DNA of 21,711 bases from a virus, in IMG/VR virus record IMGVR_UViG_3300047189_000123, positions 1-21,711 of that record. The stretch is one strand, 5' to 3'. The notes beneath the pieces are model-generated. The model was not told where the DNA came from. It worked only from the letters and a program-made list of their open reading frames with translations, and ran no database searches. Each line of letters starts with the position of its first letter. The first letter of the stretch is position 1. Shown here in pieces: positions 14,926-21,308 of the stretch. The position numbers and the translations under genes were made by a program.

Positions 14926-15238
14926 TTTCCCCACCTTCCGACCCCGTAGGGTCTATTGCTTCATTCGGGATTGTGAATCTCTGCATCGACTCAACGAGCC
15001 GGTCATAGTTCAATCCCTGTATCAAACCCATATTCTCAAGCAACTCGATACCCCAGTTATGGAGTACTCGTTGTTCATCTGTTTCAATACGTTTGAACAT
15101 TCCGCATCTCTCCAATAGCCATACGAAAACTCTCCGGGTATTTTCATCCCGCAAGAATGTATGTCTATAAGCAAGGATAGTAAGGTCAAGTCTACTATCC
15201 TTGCGTAGGAGTTTATCTAGAAACTTGCTCAAGTACAC
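14918..15238 (-). CDS. Bbp19-like small head-region protein
   Basis: A 106-residue helical protein between portal and scaffold genes. RHTFLRDENTRRVFVWLLERCGMFKR at about residues 25-50, followed by NWGIELLENMGL, follows the pattern of Bbp19-family proteins, which occupy the same gene position in BPP-1-like phages and have no firm function. The start is GTG at 15238, overlapping the portal stop by 26 bases with GAGGAGG only 3 bases upstream. A TTG at 15232 would have a more usual 9-base spacing and is a real alternative. The high Arg/Lys content could allow nucleic acid or portal contact. Confidence 0.65.
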   Translation of the reverse strand: MYLSKFLDKLLRKDSRLDLTILAYRHTFLRDENTRRVFVWLLERCGMFKRIETDEQRVLHNWGIELLENMGLIQGLNYDRLVESMQRFTIPNEAIDPTGSEGGENG

Positions 15239-16898
15239 TTCCCTCCTCTACCTGCTGATTGAGACCCGGAACGGCTTTTCCCATTTTGACCATCTGGTCC
15301 GCCTGTTGTGAGGCGGCAACTTGTTTGGCCCGTTGCTGGCGAATTTTATCCCTGACCTTTTCATCCATTATGGCCTCTTCAGGAAGACCGTCACCCTTGC
15401 TCATTTCACGTGTAATGAAATCCCAATTGTAGTTATCAAGCATTCCCGAGGCCACGGCGGGAGCGACAGGTGCGATAGCCTGTACCATTCCGGTAATGTC
15501 ACGCATGACGGCTCGATACGGCTCCGTCTTAAAGAAAGAACGACTCGCTTGCGCCAGAGGGCCTTGGTAGTCAACCTCGACACGGCCTCCTCCTTGTAGA
15601 ACCATGGGCGGTTCGGGGATCATCCTGGCATCCCATGCGGACTGGAAAAGACAATCCATCATCCGGTCAAGAACATCCTGATTGAGACCGGAGATATGAG
15701 GGCCTAGCATGACGGCTTTCTCTTCCATCCTCTGTCTGATTTCAGTAGCCGTCATTTCCCTTTGCGCCTTGGACATCATCATGAAGAAATCAACAAGGAA
15801 GTGTTTTTCTATTAGTTCTTGTTTGCGCTCCTCTCTATCTAATCCAGCGCGAAGATTAAGAGGAGGGTTTATTCTTTTGACTGTCCGGTTGATATCTTCA
15901 TATGCATTTCTTCCTCCGGGGACATATTTGATGTCATTAAGTCTCTCAGCAGGTATATCGAGTACGGGATCAACTTCCAGTTGAGCGGCATGAATATCAG
16001 TTTTAGCATATTGGTATAGAGCTTTGATATCCGCCAAGGCCGTCCAACCCGGACCTCTCCCGTAGATTTCATCACTTGATTTCTCCACTCTCCAGACACC
16101 GTAAGGATTCACCGGATATCCACTTTCGCGGATCGTGGATTCGTGTTCCACGTCTATATAACAAGACGCGAATTTCATTTCCTTATTGTCTTGTTTCTTC
16201 GGGTTCCAATCCAATCTCTGTTCTACGACATGTACGACTTCATGTTCGGTCTGGAACTCATCCGGGTCTTCGGCTTCATCGCGAATCTCTTTATCGAGTG
16301 AATCATTTTTGAATCGTTCAAGCATTCTACGGGAAGTCATCATGAAGTTCCGATCTACGATATTGACTTCTCCATTGTCATCCTCGGCTATATAAACTTC
16401 TCTAGGATGAATGGTATTGAACCATGCCTTTCTAGAACTAGGATCGAAATATGTATAGATAGTTGCAGTTCCAAGCCCCCCACCGTCTTTGAAGAGCATA
16501 TACATTTCTTTATAAAAGTTGCTGCGCTGAATGAGTCCGTAAAGAACTTGCTCGACGATACTCAGCCATATCCGCACTTCGCGGTTATCCATCAACCTTT
16601 CATTCGGGATTCTTAGGCTGAACCATTTGTAACTGGAAGACAGGAGATACCCTTGCGAACCGGATGCGTAGAGATTCAACGCAGCAACAGGAGTACCATC
16701 GTAAATCTCAAGATCGTTTCTCTGTCCCTTTTTGGGGTTGACTGTATTGAACACGGTTCTGTTGGGGACTACATTTTGACCAATATCTTCCCATACCACT
16801 TCATATGGTTCTCTAACAGCCTTCATGGTATGGAACGCAGAAAGTTTATCTGAGGCATATTTGTCTGTAGATCGAATAACAGCGGGTGCCTCGGTCAA
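15213..16898 (-). CDS. Portal protein (podoviral head-tail connector)
   Basis: A 561-residue portal, the dodecameric ring through which DNA enters and leaves. Family signs include YEVVWEDIGQNVVPNRTVF at about 32-50, YGRGPGWTALADIKALYQYA at 279-298, and TATEIRQRMEEKAVMLGPHI at 383-402 followed by a helical segment (LNQDVLDRMMDCLFQSAWDA), all typical of the Head-tail_con family of T7-like podoviruses. The length is normal. The start is an uncommon TTG at 16898, supported by AAGGAG 8 bases upstream and a 4-base overlap with the preceding stop; no better in-frame ATG exists nearby. Confidence 0.88.
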   Translation of the reverse strand: MTEAPAVIRSTDKYASDKLSAFHTMKAVREPYEVVWEDIGQNVVPNRTVFNTVNPKKGQRNDLEIYDGTPVAALNLYASGSQGYLLSSSYKWFSLRIPNERLMDNREVRIWLSIVEQVLYGLIQRSNFYKEMYMLFKDGGGLGTATIYTYFDPSSRKAWFNTIHPREVYIAEDDNGEVNIVDRNFMMTSRRMLERFKNDSLDKEIRDEAEDPDEFQTEHEVVHVVEQRLDWNPKKQDNKEMKFASCYIDVEHESTIRESGYPVNPYGVWRVEKSSDEIYGRGPGWTALADIKALYQYAKTDIHAAQLEVDPVLDIPAERLNDIKYVPGGRNAYEDINRTVKRINPPLNLRAGLDREERKQELIEKHFLVDFFMMMSKAQREMTATEIRQRMEEKAVMLGPHISGLNQDVLDRMMDCLFQSAWDARMIPEPPMVLQGGGRVEVDYQGPLAQASRSFFKTEPYRAVMRDITGMVQAIAPVAPAVASGMLDNYNWDFITREMSKGDGLPEEAIMDEKVRDKIRQQRAKQVAASQQADQMVKMGKAVPGLNQQVEEGSVLEQVSR

Positions 16899-17140
16899 GA
16901 ATTGATCTCCTTCGTCATCGCTGCTCGGATTGCGGCGGAATGTGCCACCAATTTGGGAAGTTTCCCTTGAAATCTCATGGCTTTGATCATAAGGCGTCTT
17001 TCGGGAGCGAGTTTCCTAGGATCCATTTTTGCCACACGTTCCATGGTCTCATTGTAAGACTTTCGGAACTCTGGATTATCCATAGAATATCGTCTGTAGG
17101 TTCCGCCTATCTGTTCTTTCCCATGAATGATGAATTCCAT
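16895..17140 (-). CDS. Small hypothetical protein, 81 residues
   Basis: Not recognised. A basic, helical protein (MDPRKLAPERRLMIKAMRFQ, then AAIRAAMTKEINS) with a short beta N-terminus (MEFIIHGKEQIGGTYRRYS). GGAGG lies 4 bases before the ATG. Both ends overlap neighbours (TAATG with the gene before, TTGA with the portal), so its synthesis is tied to terminase and portal. A role in packaging or portal assembly is plausible from position only. Confidence 0.62.
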   Translation of the reverse strand: MEFIIHGKEQIGGTYRRYSMDNPEFRKSYNETMERVAKMDPRKLAPERRLMIKAMRFQGKLPKLVAHSAAIRAAMTKEINS

Positions 17141-17538
17141 TATACCTCCATGGGGACTTTGTCAGAAACGGCAAGATCGCATTCTCGTAGAGTCATGAAC
17201 CTGGCTTTGTCCCTGACATAATCTCCGATTTCATCGGGGTCCAGAAGAACGAATTTCACCGTGGTGGGAGTATTGATTTCCCTCATCTCATTCGTTCTCA
17301 AGTCCTTTTTGAAGAACTTCCTTGGCTGGGCCTCGGTATATCTCTTGGCAATGGGGGAAGAAGTACACAGATAATCAGGCCGTTTCTTTCCTAATCCGGC
17401 GGGATAGAAAGACCTTTCATGAAGGACCATAGGAGGAACTCCGTCCTCCGGCCACTCTTCCCTTCGCGCCGATGGCGCCATATATCCCATCTGACAAGTA
17501 ACAACGCATTCGTAGTAGTAGCGTCTATCTTTAGCCAT
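17140..17538 (-). CDS. Hypothetical protein, 132 residues
   Basis: Not recognised. It begins MAKDRRYYYECVVTCQMGYM and has a mixed alpha/beta pattern with two cysteines (CVVTC). The C-terminal half contains TTVKFVLLDPDEIGDYVRDK. The reading frame is open up to 17640, inside the terminase nuclease gene. The ATG at 17538 is chosen because it lies 4 bases after the nuclease stop and has GAGGAG plus a nearer AAGG upstream; the extra 34 residues would overlap the nuclease and have no support. It sits between terminase and portal. Confidence 0.6.
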   Translation of the reverse strand: MAKDRRYYYECVVTCQMGYMAPSARREEWPEDGVPPMVLHERSFYPAGLGKKRPDYLCTSSPIAKRYTEAQPRKFFKKDLRTNEMREINTPTTVKFVLLDPDEIGDYVRDKARFMTLRECDLAVSDKVPMEV

Positions 17539-17542
17539 TACC

Positions 17543-18229
17543 TTAATTGCTCCTCGAATAAGGATCGTAGGACTTATAGTCCTCAGAGTGATAACTCTGT
17601 TGCTCACCCCGCAACGCGGAGGGAGCGTGACTTTCAGCAAACCAAGTAGCCAAAGCCACCGAGATCACCAAGTCATCATGGACTGCATTTTCGATACTCT
17701 CATAAGAAACGGTCGATGATGTCTTATTGATCTTGTATCCAAATGCTCCCAATTCCTCACGGAATTCCTGTTGATATTTGACCCCTTTCATTACTTTAAG
17801 TTTTCCAGTCTGTGCCAGTTTAACCAATTGAGTTACCAAGGCCTCCTTGGGTACGTGGTACTCGTTGGGTTCGGGTTGGCTTACTGTCTCACCTCCTGTA
17901 ATAACGATACCGATCATGGGGACGTGTTTCTTCCGGATTGATTCCATGACCGGAGCCCCCACTCCCGTCATGTCTCCCAGTGCCCAATTCCGAGACCCCA
18001 TCAACTCCGGCATTTTCCAAAGTCTTGCAACTTCGTTCTCCACAATCTCATAAGGCGTATTCAACTCAAATCGCCTCATGTACATCACATAATAGCGAGA
18101 GATAAACTTCGTCGGGTCCAGGTCTTCAGCATGAGGCGTAAACCATTTGCGGGCTACGATAGAGAGAGCGGAGAAATCTTGCGCTCTTCCAATATCCAGT
18201 CCAAAAAAAACTGCCTCATGAGGTTGCAT
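17543..18229 (-). CDS. terL: Large terminase, nuclease half (separate gene)
   Basis: A 228-residue RNase H-fold nuclease that cuts phage DNA during packaging. Three acidic positions are in the expected order: Asp12 in FFGLDIGRAQDFSALSIV, Asp86 in ALGDMTGVGAPV, and HDD at residues 184-186 before LVISVALA. It corresponds only to the C-terminal half of a normal large terminase; the ATPase half is the preceding gene, 14 bases overlapping and in another frame. Its own ATG has AAGGA 6 bases upstream, inside the ATPase gene, so separate, coupled translation is likely. A run of eight T at 18203-18210 encodes Val-Phe-Phe just before the first Asp. Confidence 0.85.
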   Translation of the reverse strand: MQPHEAVFFGLDIGRAQDFSALSIVARKWFTPHAEDLDPTKFISRYYVMYMRRFELNTPYEIVENEVARLWKMPELMGSRNWALGDMTGVGAPVMESIRKKHVPMIGIVITGGETVSQPEPNEYHVPKEALVTQLVKLAQTGKLKVMKGVKYQQEFREELGAFGYKINKTSSTVSYESIENAVHDDLVISVALATWFAESHAPSALRGEQQSYHSEDYKSYDPYSRSN

Positions 18230-19067
18230 TTGCTATCCTTCTCAACTCAGAGGCAACCCCCGCTTCAAATGCCGCCTGCCAACCATAGCCTTCTTCCAGA
18301 AGATTCATTCCAAAGGCTCCCGGGTCGATTACAAATCCGTCATCCGTGAAGATGGCTGAGATCATATCGTCAGAGAAGAGAGTTCCCGAAACTTCCAGGA
18401 ACTTGCAATGATACTCTTGCTCGAACCAGTCTGGCCCGAGAAGATTCAATTGCTGTTCAAGGAACTTCGCCTCAATCCTAGGACATTGCTCAGCCACTAC
18501 CGAGAAGGTTTTCCATTGGCTTCCTGGTTCATCCTTGTTCTTCCAGACATCCCAAAAGAACCCCCTCTTTCCGCGAGGAGTACTAGCTAATATCAAAGAC
18601 CCATGAGATACCGCCAACATTGGATTGACGGCTTTGAAAAACTTTTCACTTACCACCGCCGCCTCATCTATAATCACAAGGTTCGGGGTGAATCCTAGGA
18701 TTGACTCCTCACTTCCCGGAAGACTCAGAACTCGACTTCCGTTATCCAGAGTCAAAGAGTAGGAGTTGTCATCCGTTCTCTTCGGACCCTCCTCAACCTC
18801 CTTGTAAACCTTCAGAACTTTCCTGAACAATTCTTGAGACTGCCTAAGAGAGTTACTGAACAGAAGTACCAACTGGTCATTTCTGGTCATTACTTGCCAC
18901 GCTGTTCTTTCTGCCGCCGTGGTACTCTTTCCTGTCTGCCTAGAACAACACCACGCCTGGTATTGTGTAGGGCAATCCAGGGCTTCCTGTTGCCAAAGAT
19001 CAAGTCTTATACCTGTCTGCTCCTTAACCCACAAAGACGGATGTAGGAGATGCGACATTGGTATCAT
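18216..19067 (-). CDS. terL: Large terminase, ATPase half (separate gene)
   Basis: A 283-residue packaging motor ATPase. The adenine-binding Gln region is RLDLWQQEAL (21-30), Walker A is CSRQTGKST (41-49), Walker B is NLVIIDEA (129-136) and motif III is LILASTPRGKRG (158-169). The nuclease domain that normally follows is absent; the frame stops at TGA (18216-18218) and the nuclease begins in a shifted frame. The two proteins total 511 residues, about one ordinary large terminase. Start choice is uncertain: ATGs at 19067 and 19058 both lack a clear ribosome binding site, and a TATACT box lies so near that the mRNA could be leaderless. This is the first gene of the late operon. Confidence 0.87.
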   Translation of the reverse strand: MIPMSHLLHPSLWVKEQTGIRLDLWQQEALDCPTQYQAWCCSRQTGKSTTAAERTAWQVMTRNDQLVLLFSNSLRQSQELFRKVLKVYKEVEEGPKRTDDNSYSLTLDNGSRVLSLPGSEESILGFTPNLVIIDEAAVVSEKFFKAVNPMLAVSHGSLILASTPRGKRGFFWDVWKNKDEPGSQWKTFSVVAEQCPRIEAKFLEQQLNLLGPDWFEQEYHCKFLEVSGTLFSDDMISAIFTDDGFVIDPGAFGMNLLEEGYGWQAAFEAGVASELRRIANATS

Positions 19068-19139: not shown

Positions 19140-19661
19140 ATGATTTCAACCGGACCTACGTATCTTATTGCCGATGAGATAAAGAAGGCTGTTACCAAGG
19201 AACGTGAGGAGATCATAAAAATGTTGGAAGATATATATGAGAGTGGGCGAGGTGCTCTGAATGATGCCATTGGCATACTTAAGGCACGCGGGGAGAAGAA
19301 GCTGGAATGCCATTACTGCGATGGTGCGGGAATAAGGAACTGGGCCACCGTCTGTCTTTACTGTAACGGTGATGGGAGGAAGAAGCCTCCCATATACTGG
19401 TATGAAGTCATTGACTACGATGGAAAGCGTAAGCGTATGTGGAGTACAGAACCGATACAGGATGGTATCCCTGGTGACGAGACAGAGAAGAAGTATTGCT
19501 GTCCGTGCCGATCATATTACTGGAAAATTATCAATGGTGCTCCCTGCGGATGTGCATGTCACTCACCCAAGAAGCAGGAGGGTTTCAAACATTTGGGGCA
19601 GCCGGTATATATAGAGTTGAACCAGAAGCCGGAGGGTTTCGATCCAAATGACGCTCACTAG
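19140..19661 (+). CDS. Cysteine-rich zinc-binding-like protein
   Basis: 173 residues if started at 19140. An N-terminal charged helix (ADEIKKAVTKEREEIIKMLE) is followed by two CxxCxGxG-type knuckles at residues 57-64 and 72-79 (CHYCDGAG, CLYCNGDG), like the DnaJ zinc region. A second cluster follows at 120-141 (CCPC, then CGCACH). These suggest two zinc sites and a role in protein or nucleic-acid binding; no enzyme motif is seen. The ATG at 19140 has AAGGA touching it, which is too close. The ATG at 19221 has GAGGAG 9 bases upstream and would give 146 residues with all cysteines kept. The longer form is listed because its N-terminal helix is common in phage proteins of this type. Confidence 0.62.
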   Translation: MISTGPTYLIADEIKKAVTKEREEIIKMLEDIYESGRGALNDAIGILKARGEKKLECHYCDGAGIRNWATVCLYCNGDGRKKPPIYWYEVIDYDGKRKRMWSTEPIQDGIPGDETEKKYCCPCRSYYWKIINGAPCGCACHSPKKQEGFKHLGQPVYIELNQKPEGFDPNDAH

Positions 19662-19806
19662 CTACCAAGTATCTGGTTATGATTACTTCACCAAGTCAAA
19701 AATTCTTGAGATAGCTCAGGAACTTAGAGACAATCCTGGACTCCGTATAAAACCTTATCTTTCAACTAAGATATCAGAACTGCGCGCCGCCTTGGTGAAA
19801 AAATGA
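19648..19806 (+). CDS. Small hypothetical protein, 52 residues
   Basis: Not recognised. A small, basic, helical protein (MTLTSYQVSGYDYFTKSKIL at the start, STKISELRAALVKK at the end). It overlaps the zinc-protein gene by 14 bases and the next gene by 4 (ATGA). GGAGGG lies 11 bases before its ATG. The tight fit between two genes supports it as a real coding unit. Confidence 0.5.
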   Translation: MTLTSYQVSGYDYFTKSKILEIAQELRDNPGLRIKPYLSTKISELRAALVKK

Positions 19807-20063
19807 CCCTAAACCAAATTAAGAAAAAGTATGGCGCCCCCGCATTTGACTGGATAACTCAGAAACTAGTAGATGGTACCATAAAACCCACCTACCACAA
19901 CGGTAAGGGCTATTTTACTGTAAGATTAGAAAATCCTAAGTGTAAAAGACCATTCATCACTATGCGAGATCATTTCAAGTATGTAGGACTAGATACTTGG
20001 GAATTGCCTGATATAGTCCGATTCTCAGATATCGTCCAGGTAATCATAGATCAACCACAATGA
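19803..20063 (+). CDS. Small hypothetical protein, 86 residues
   Basis: Not recognised. The N-terminus (MTLNQIKKKYGAPAFDWITQ) looks like a helix-turn-helix-type or recognition helix region. It is followed by a beta stretch with Lys/Arg and a Cys (GYFTVRLENPKCKRPFITMR) and an acidic end. It is linked by ATGA overlaps to the genes on both sides, so the cluster is one transcription unit. A DNA-binding role is possible but unsupported. Confidence 0.5.
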   Translation: MTLNQIKKKYGAPAFDWITQKLVDGTIKPTYHNGKGYFTVRLENPKCKRPFITMRDHFKYVGLDTWELPDIVRFSDIVQVIIDQPQ

Positions 20064-20245
20064 GAGAGTTACTGTATTGTGATGACAAACTCATTATAGC
20101 AAGAGTATCAATTATCCTAGATGGGCTATCCTTCGTAAAAATAATAAGATATGCTTTACCAGGTAAAATAGATCTGTACCATGATCACGAATGGTGGCTC
20201 GATTACTGTATGGCCCTAGAAGAAATAAATAGCTTTTCACCATGA
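20060..20245 (+). CDS. Small hypothetical protein, 61 residues
   Basis: Not recognised. An acidic, aromatic-rich protein (RYALPGKIDLYHDHEWWLDY) beginning MRELLYCDDKLIIARVS. Its ATG overlaps the previous stop as ATGA, with no strong ribosome binding site of its own, so it depends on coupling. It is the last gene of the plus-strand cluster, converging with the helix-turn-helix gene beyond. Confidence 0.45.
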   Translation: MRELLYCDDKLIIARVSIILDGLSFVKIIRYALPGKIDLYHDHEWWLDYCMALEEINSFSP

Positions 20246-20417: not shown

Positions 20418-20666
20418 CTATGCATAGGATGGGTCTAACAGACTAGCCATGCTAGTGCGTAGGCTATATACATAGCGTGATATAGTAGGCTGGCTCTTAC
20501 CTAGAGCTCGCCCTATCTCACTCTCGCTGTAGCCATGCGTCATCAGTAAGAATGTACGTTGTCTACTATTAGATACATGCTCCAGCACATGCTCAATATC
20601 AGCAACTAGCACAGGATTGCACCCCGCATACCTCATATCATGCCCTATTGTGTCCAGCGTACTCAT
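20418..20666 (-). CDS. Helix-turn-helix transcription regulator (sigma region 4/LuxR-like)
   Basis: An 82-residue DNA-binding protein. The helix-turn-helix occupies about residues 34-70: SRQRTFLLMTHGYSESEIGR, then ALGKSQPTISRYVYSLR, with the recognition helix at SQPTISRYVYSL. This is the fold of sigma70 region 4 and LuxR effector domains. A longer frame runs up to 20717, but the ATG at 20666 overlaps the previous stop as ATGA and has GGAGG 10 bases upstream. It shares a transcript with the candidate small terminase. Candidate targets are the divergent promoters at 21280-21397 and the late-operon start near 19075; late-gene activation is inference. Confidence 0.68.
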   Translation of the reverse strand: MSTLDTIGHDMRYAGCNPVLVADIEHVLEHVSNSRQRTFLLMTHGYSESEIGRALGKSQPTISRYVYSLRTSMASLLDPSYA

Positions 20667-21250
20667 GTTCCCACTTCCTCCAAATATCGCTCTAGGCTCT
20701 CGTGGCATAGCTCGCACTCTATGCTATGGTACTTGCGCATGTAATCTGCCATCCTAGCCCTAGTATCTTGCCCCTGGCCTTGCTTGGCAGCTTGTAGCTT
20801 GTCTTGCTCTAGCTTGAGTTTAGTACTGTCAACTATTACACTTGTTAACAGTTTACAACCCTCAATTAACACTCTCTCAGCTTGAGCATAGTATTGATCG
20901 GCTATCCCCTGAGCCTCTAGTTTGCTGCCGGTAGCTGTATCTATTATCTCTCTACCCTTAGTTATGCGATCCTCTGCTCTATCTATAGACTTACGGACTC
21001 TTGCTAGTACAGAGTCCATAGTTAGGTCGGAGTGGTGCTCTACTCGTCTAGAGATAGCGGCTTGGATATGGCCGTTACGGTGGTGGCGGGCGAAAGTGGC
21101 AACTGATATATCAGGGTAGGTGCGATGTAGGTCGGCGTAGCTGCGCCCCTCGACTAACCATTTATCAATCCCTTCGCGATCCATGTTGATACAGATCGTG
21201 CATGGGCGGCCATGCTTGCGACCGGGGACCATTGCCGCCGTCAAATTCAT
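20663..21250 (-). CDS. Candidate small terminase subunit (DNA-binding)
   Basis: 195 residues. The N-terminal part carries PGRKHGRPCTICINMDREGI (9-28) and a helix-turn-helix-like unit, KWLVEGRSYADLHRTYPDIS then VATFARHHRNGHI (30-62), a pattern common in phage small-terminase-like proteins. A long coiled-coil-prone middle follows (about 80-165), suited to ring assembly. CxxC pairs occur near both ends (17/20 and 179/182) and could form one zinc site. The frame opens at a GTG at 21298, but the ATG at 21250 has GGGGGG 8 bases upstream and lies 23 bases from the predicted transcript start. Another DNA-binding regulator is the alternative. Confidence 0.5.
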   Translation of the reverse strand: MNLTAAMVPGRKHGRPCTICINMDREGIDKWLVEGRSYADLHRTYPDISVATFARHHRNGHIQAAISRRVEHHSDLTMDSVLARVRKSIDRAEDRITKGREIIDTATGSKLEAQGIADQYYAQAERVLIEGCKLLTSVIVDSTKLKLEQDKLQAAKQGQGQDTRARMADYMRKYHSIECELCHESLERYLEEVGT

Positions 21251-21279
21251 ATAGCAATCCCCCCAGTTGCCATATTGAT

Positions 21280-21308
21280 AATGTATCACGCGATCCACGG
21301 GTTGTCAA
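21280..21308 (-). promoter_or_regulatory. Sigma70-like promoter for the candidate small terminase
   Basis: On the minus strand: TTGACA (21308-21303), a 17-base spacer and TACATT (21285-21280), with TGA just before the -10 (extended -10). An 11-base palindrome, GGTTGTCAACC at 21300-21310, covers the -35 and could be a repressor site. Confidence 0.6.

Follow-up and report, generated by a model that had tools for sequence, protein, structure and literature searches.

The large terminase, TerL, is described as one chain that carries both the packaging motor and the nuclease (e.g. PMC7824862). In the Thermus phages P23-45, P74-26 and G20c (structures 4zni, 5tge and 5m1q) it is a single chain of 485 aa, whose ATPase fold and RuvC-like nuclease are separated by a short hinge. 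The same two folds are encoded in the window, by which we mean the whole stretch of DNA that was analysed, a 21,711-bp IMG/VR metagenomic virus record with its structural genes on the minus strand. The nuclease residues of the window are equivalent to D294, D347 and H427-D428-D429 of the Thermus phage protein, but the two folds lie on two chains. Among the INPHARED phages the nearest TerLs are those of Thermus phage Riverbug and Meiothermus phages MMP17 and MMP7, which share 36–37% identity with the window ATPase and 49–51% with the split ATPase of a Sinorhizobium locus; those of Riverbug and MMP17 are single ORFs, unlike that of the window. When several members of the lineage described below were compared by tblastn with 50,697 INPHARED records, the only close matches were the fused Thermus/Meiothermus TerLs and an annotated TerL of a Tunturiibacter phage (Tunturi_4), the latter found with the nuclease of another lineage member, not that of the window, as the query.

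Other arrangements of TerL are known. The terL gene of the Jug phages comprises several ORFs, like that of the window, but is rejoined by RNA splicing (PMC12363816). The window, on the other hand, has no intron, and its two genes have independent start codons. In phi29-type phages the packaging ATPase, gp16, functions although its own chain bears no catalytic nuclease, and phi29 lacks a separate terminase nuclease as well; the window encodes such a nuclease next door, its active site intact. In the annotation of actinophages the ATPase and nuclease domains of TerL carry separate labels. PHROGs has the two halves as separate families, phrog_7579 and phrog_27743, the latter without the name of a terminase nuclease; each matches one protein of the window, so both halves have already been collected as families. 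Searches of open-access papers turned up the intron-split terL (PMC12363816) but no account of a two-gene TerL lineage; they covered few papers from subscription journals.

The relevant features of the window are as follows.

15213–16898, minus strand: portal gene, podovirus head-to-tail connector (Pfam Head-tail_con, E 1.1e-111)
17140–17538, minus strand: small gene after terL-N, with a counterpart after the split pair of the nearest syntenic relative, L012 (31% identity, E 5e-16)
17543–18229, minus strand: terL-N, RuvC/RNase H-like nuclease of the large terminase, 228 aa
18216–18229, minus strand: overlap of terL-A and terL-N, 14 nt, ATGCAACCTCATGA (ORF list, sequence and script)
18216–19067, minus strand: terL-A, packaging ATPase of the large terminase, 283 aa
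18233–18235, minus strand: TAG stop in the nuclease frame, two codons 5' of the terL-N ATG
18236–18240, minus strand: AAGGA, Shine-Dalgarno-like site for terL-N, within terL-A, 6 nt ahead of the ATG (18229–18227)

An earlier note on this DNA had read the locus as two overlapping terL genes, and its coordinates, 14-nt overlap, AAGGA and TAG agree to the base with the sequence and the ORF list. It was also correct in giving terL-N a private ribosome binding site, although such a site is ordinary for a gene within an operon. The frame of terL-N is +1 relative to that of terL-A, and the two products together amount to 511 aa. Neighbouring genes of the window overlap by 1 to 55 nt, most neighbours among the structural genes overlapping or almost touching, and the 14-nt overlap alone is ordinary in this genome.

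What are the two proteins? The product of terL-A contains the three motor motifs that the earlier note had ascribed to it: the P-loop SRQTGKST, the Walker B motif IIDEAA and the coupling motif STP. It matches Pfam Terminase_6N (E 5e-14) and phrog_7579 (terminase large subunit, 239 positions; E 2.4e-51), and a profile built from it and its relatives finds P74-26 TerL (4zni) and T4 gp17 in the PDB (E 3e-23). The AlphaFold2 model has a pLDDT of 90.4, and its best Foldseek matches are the ATPase domains of T4 gp17 and P74-26 TerL. The motifs and the ASCE fold of a TerL ATPase domain are thus all present. At its C-terminus (18216–18338, minus strand) the protein carries about 40 extra residues that end in a predicted helix, 263–282, and are absent from L012; this extension may be a docking element.

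The product of terL-N keeps the three acidic positions of the nuclease, as the earlier note had proposed; residue alignment to P23-45 places them at D12, D86 and D185/D186. Its sole family match is phrog_27743 (233 positions; E 6.9e-35), which PHROGs labels ‘unknown function’. Against the PDB the family profile, which matches solved TerL structures at E 5e-15, finds G20c (5m1q), P74-26 (5tge) and, both weakly, the terminase nucleases of RB49 and of herpesvirus. The AlphaFold2 model (pLDDT 87.8) is matched by Foldseek to the TerL nucleases of G20c and SPP1 and to RuvC. The RuvC/RNase H-like fold and the acidic positions are those of a TerL nuclease domain, and for both halves the profiles and the predicted folds lead to TerL. 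The surroundings are those of a terL gene as well, with the portal (Head-tail_con) and the major capsid protein (GP7) encoded downstream on the same strand. A candidate small terminase or DNA-binding gene (20663–21298, minus strand) lies upstream of terL-A and terL-N, and plus-strand genes (19140–20245) stand in between.

Is the split peculiar to this record? Relatives were gathered by alignment-based scans of IMG/VR and of GTDB genomes; single-protein scans of viral contigs with terL-A, terL-N or the portal, and of genome contigs with terL-N, gave no matches. The nearest syntenic relative, L012, is also split, with identities of 47% for the nuclease, 44% for the ATPase and 50% for the portal, and in both loci the terL pair lies upstream of the portal gene. 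Its junction is unlike that of the window, being either an overlap of 8 nt, if a GTG is taken as the nuclease start, or a gap of 43 nt, if the ATG that aligns with the terL-N start of the window is taken. No relative closer than 47% identity was found in the scanned sets, so the window's own junction is confirmed by analogy only.

Counting the window, 83 loci have the halves in separate ORFs on one strand. The frame relation between the halves is 0 in 12 of them, 1 in 23 and 2 in 48. The spacing ranges from a 32-nt overlap to a gap of about 1.6 kb, the commonest being a 4-nt overlap (25 loci). The set includes some incomplete loci and some near-duplicates, and a simple score decided which start codons were used, so that each spacing taken singly is approximate; that the genes are split does not hinge on these values. 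In most of these loci the halves are adjacent, with an overlap or a gap of a few bases, and the nuclease has its own start and a Shine-Dalgarno-like site. The gap is wide in L061 (1586 nt) and in L189 (935 nt). In L061 (5959–8927) other ORFs lie between the halves, and the nuclease gene is followed directly by a 468-aa ORF, maybe a portal. The order is reversed, nuclease first, in one locus only (L149, 5983–7917).

The hosts of the split loci include methanogens, Acidobacteria, rhizobia, Bacillota and Chloroflexota; the records name Methanoculleus, Methanoregula, Methanothrix, Methanoperedens, Bradyrhizobium, Sinorhizobium, Thermovorax, Zavarzinella, Acidobacteria, Chloroflexota and Clostridia. 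Isolate genomes of Bradyrhizobium, Thermovorax and Zavarzinella are split too, at other junctions. In samples drawn from the genus Bradyrhizobium and from a methanogen order, phrog_27743 had matches in 15 of 196 genomes (a few of the 15 short or weak) and in 7 of 150, respectively. Some 15 further Bradyrhizobium and methanogen loci include no fused gene; a separate ATPase ORF stands beside the nuclease in all but one, in which no ATPase was found. Fused frames in close relatives had been named in advance as the observation that would count against two genes. The nearest relatives are all split, and their junctions differ.

Could the two frames belong to a single gene? A base-calling or assembly error within one continuous terL gene is suggested by the metagenomic origin of the contig (IMG/VR) and by two frames that lie one base apart. 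But the relatives, isolate genomes included, are split at other junctions, and the error would have to fall within a 20-nt stretch, bounded by the TAG and the TGA, that contains no run of more than three. The A8 run at 18203–18210 lies downstream of the terL-A stop, so that a length error there cannot have made the split. Joined into one chain, moreover, the halves would be connected by a linker that exceeds that of most single-chain relatives by about 40 residues. We regard such an error as exceedingly improbable. Programmed frameshifting would yield a single protein from both frames, with a short product of the ATPase alone possibly made as well. Dual products made by frameshifting are known in phages, which we counted in its favour together with the overlap of the frames. 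Against it, terL-N starts at an ATG of its own behind a Shine-Dalgarno-like site, and the RNA structure at the junction is ordinary (z 0.25). Among relatives all three frame relations occur, some gaps are wide and one locus has the order reversed; the conserved frame relation that, with a slippery site, marks a programmed frameshift gene is absent. This explanation, too, is very unlikely. The alternative offered in the earlier note, a one-base error or a +1 frameshift between about 18216 and 18232, is accordingly excluded for the lineage by the differing junctions of the relatives, and is very unlikely for the window.

Splitting by a group I intron or an intein is a documented route for terL, since in the Jug phages the intron-split gene is rejoined by RNA splicing (PMC12363816). 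The 14-nt overlap, however, leaves no room for an intron between terL-A and terL-N, the window has no Rfam match, and in most relatives the halves overlap or stand just a few bases apart. An intron or intein as a present-day element of the window is refuted, and as the explanation of the locus it has almost no chance of being correct; as the ancient cause of the split it is possible. Sequencing error, frameshift, intron and intein alike cannot yield a pattern that includes all three frame relations, wide gaps and a reversed order. Might the terminase instead be decaying, or its nuclease half have been taken into another role? Some relatives do have tandem nuclease copies, three of them without the motif I aspartate. 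In the window, on the other hand, both halves are intact, with high-confidence folds and all catalytic residues kept, and their place upstream of the portal is shared with L012, the halves being adjacent in most loci of the lineage. We give decay or a change of role very little credence.

How old is the division into two genes? In the ATPase tree one group (SH-aLRT 95) holds 66 split, 6 fused and 2 unscored rows, one of the split rows (L003) being the cut end of a phage record with no real split. The fused Acidobacteria and Thermus/Meiothermus rows nest within the split group, so the TerLs of the latter are probably rejoined or retained single-chain forms. The deep branches of this tree have weak support. 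A smaller, more careful tree joins the window and L012 at 100/99, its deep order being uncertain, and over bootstrap trees the state changes between split and fused 3–7 times. What can be claimed with care is an old split, common within a broad TerL lineage whose members are viruses and proviruses of bacteria and archaea; several changes of state occurred in this lineage, and they are most simply read as rejoining.

The length of the hinge bears on the same question. From the ATPase mark to nuclease motif I there are 9–18 residues in most single-chain relatives and 25–35 in the fused Acidobacteria, which we take as rejoined. The window terL-A tail runs 45 residues past the profile mark, the longest of all. 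A split at a short hinge, together with this tail, indicates that the end of the ATPase has drifted since the split, and the three lengths form an independent argument against a recent break. A separate observation concerns the TerL of Rhodobacteraceae phage LS06-2018-MD07 (L007, 2803–4851), which has an apparent intein-like insert, CFAAGTLVQTDAGKVRIEDIRVGD...HEYFAENILVSN.

Where the site is present, the catalytic acids are kept in nearly all stand-alone nucleases. A single ATPase gene is followed by two or three nuclease genes in L044 (6733–7944), L153, L162, L170, L171, L174–L176, L186 and L189. One copy in each of L044, L171 and L153 has Ser or Glu for the motif I Asp, and in several copies the His that precedes the Asp pair is gone. 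In L051 (5993–6607) a stand-alone ATPase is followed by a different RuvC-like ORF, and in L059 by no recognisable nuclease; replacement of the partner is possible in both.

We conclude that this tailed virus, of podovirus type, very probably makes its large terminase as two separate proteins, each from its own gene in an operon where the two genes overlap, and that the split is old. The locus departs from the canonical TerL, in which both domains share one polypeptide, in having two ORFs in different frames, and the split is kept in relatives. The earlier note's preference for a two-polypeptide motor over a broken gene is the best inference from these sequences, given that relatives are split and that the catalytic acids are kept in nearly all nucleases. 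The ATPase, terL-A, would pump DNA through the portal and the RuvC-like nuclease, terL-N, would cut the concatemeric DNA. The nuclease would be translated from its own start, probably coupled to the translation of terL-A. At the portal the two proteins probably come together without a covalent link, and there the nuclease may be held on, and cut, DNA gripped by the ATPase. The isolated nuclease domains of the SPP1 and P22 terminases are weak or inactive (work cited in PMC5389553), and a stand-alone nuclease presumably therefore needs its partner nearby. Some members of the lineage would have rejoined the halves, and others have duplicated the nuclease.

What does the split mean for the family? 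As judged from the sequences, it is a family-wide trait across bacteria and archaea and not the quirk of one genome. We lean towards the wider reading of an ancient lineage of tailed viruses, mostly uncultured and infecting bacteria and archaea, whose large terminase has two subunits. The nuclease would join the ATPase ring in trans and, once untethered, would in some members have been duplicated and have partly lost catalysis, giving heteromeric cutters. One family of ‘unknown’ function, phrog_27743, gains a function, and searches with full-length TerL may miss or misjudge viruses whose terL is split. Models of translocation and of headful cutting assume that the ATPase and the nuclease are tethered. 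With separate subunits in a natural lineage, each activity could be removed or titrated without the other, so that the need of translocation for the nuclease, and the control of cutting, would become directly testable.
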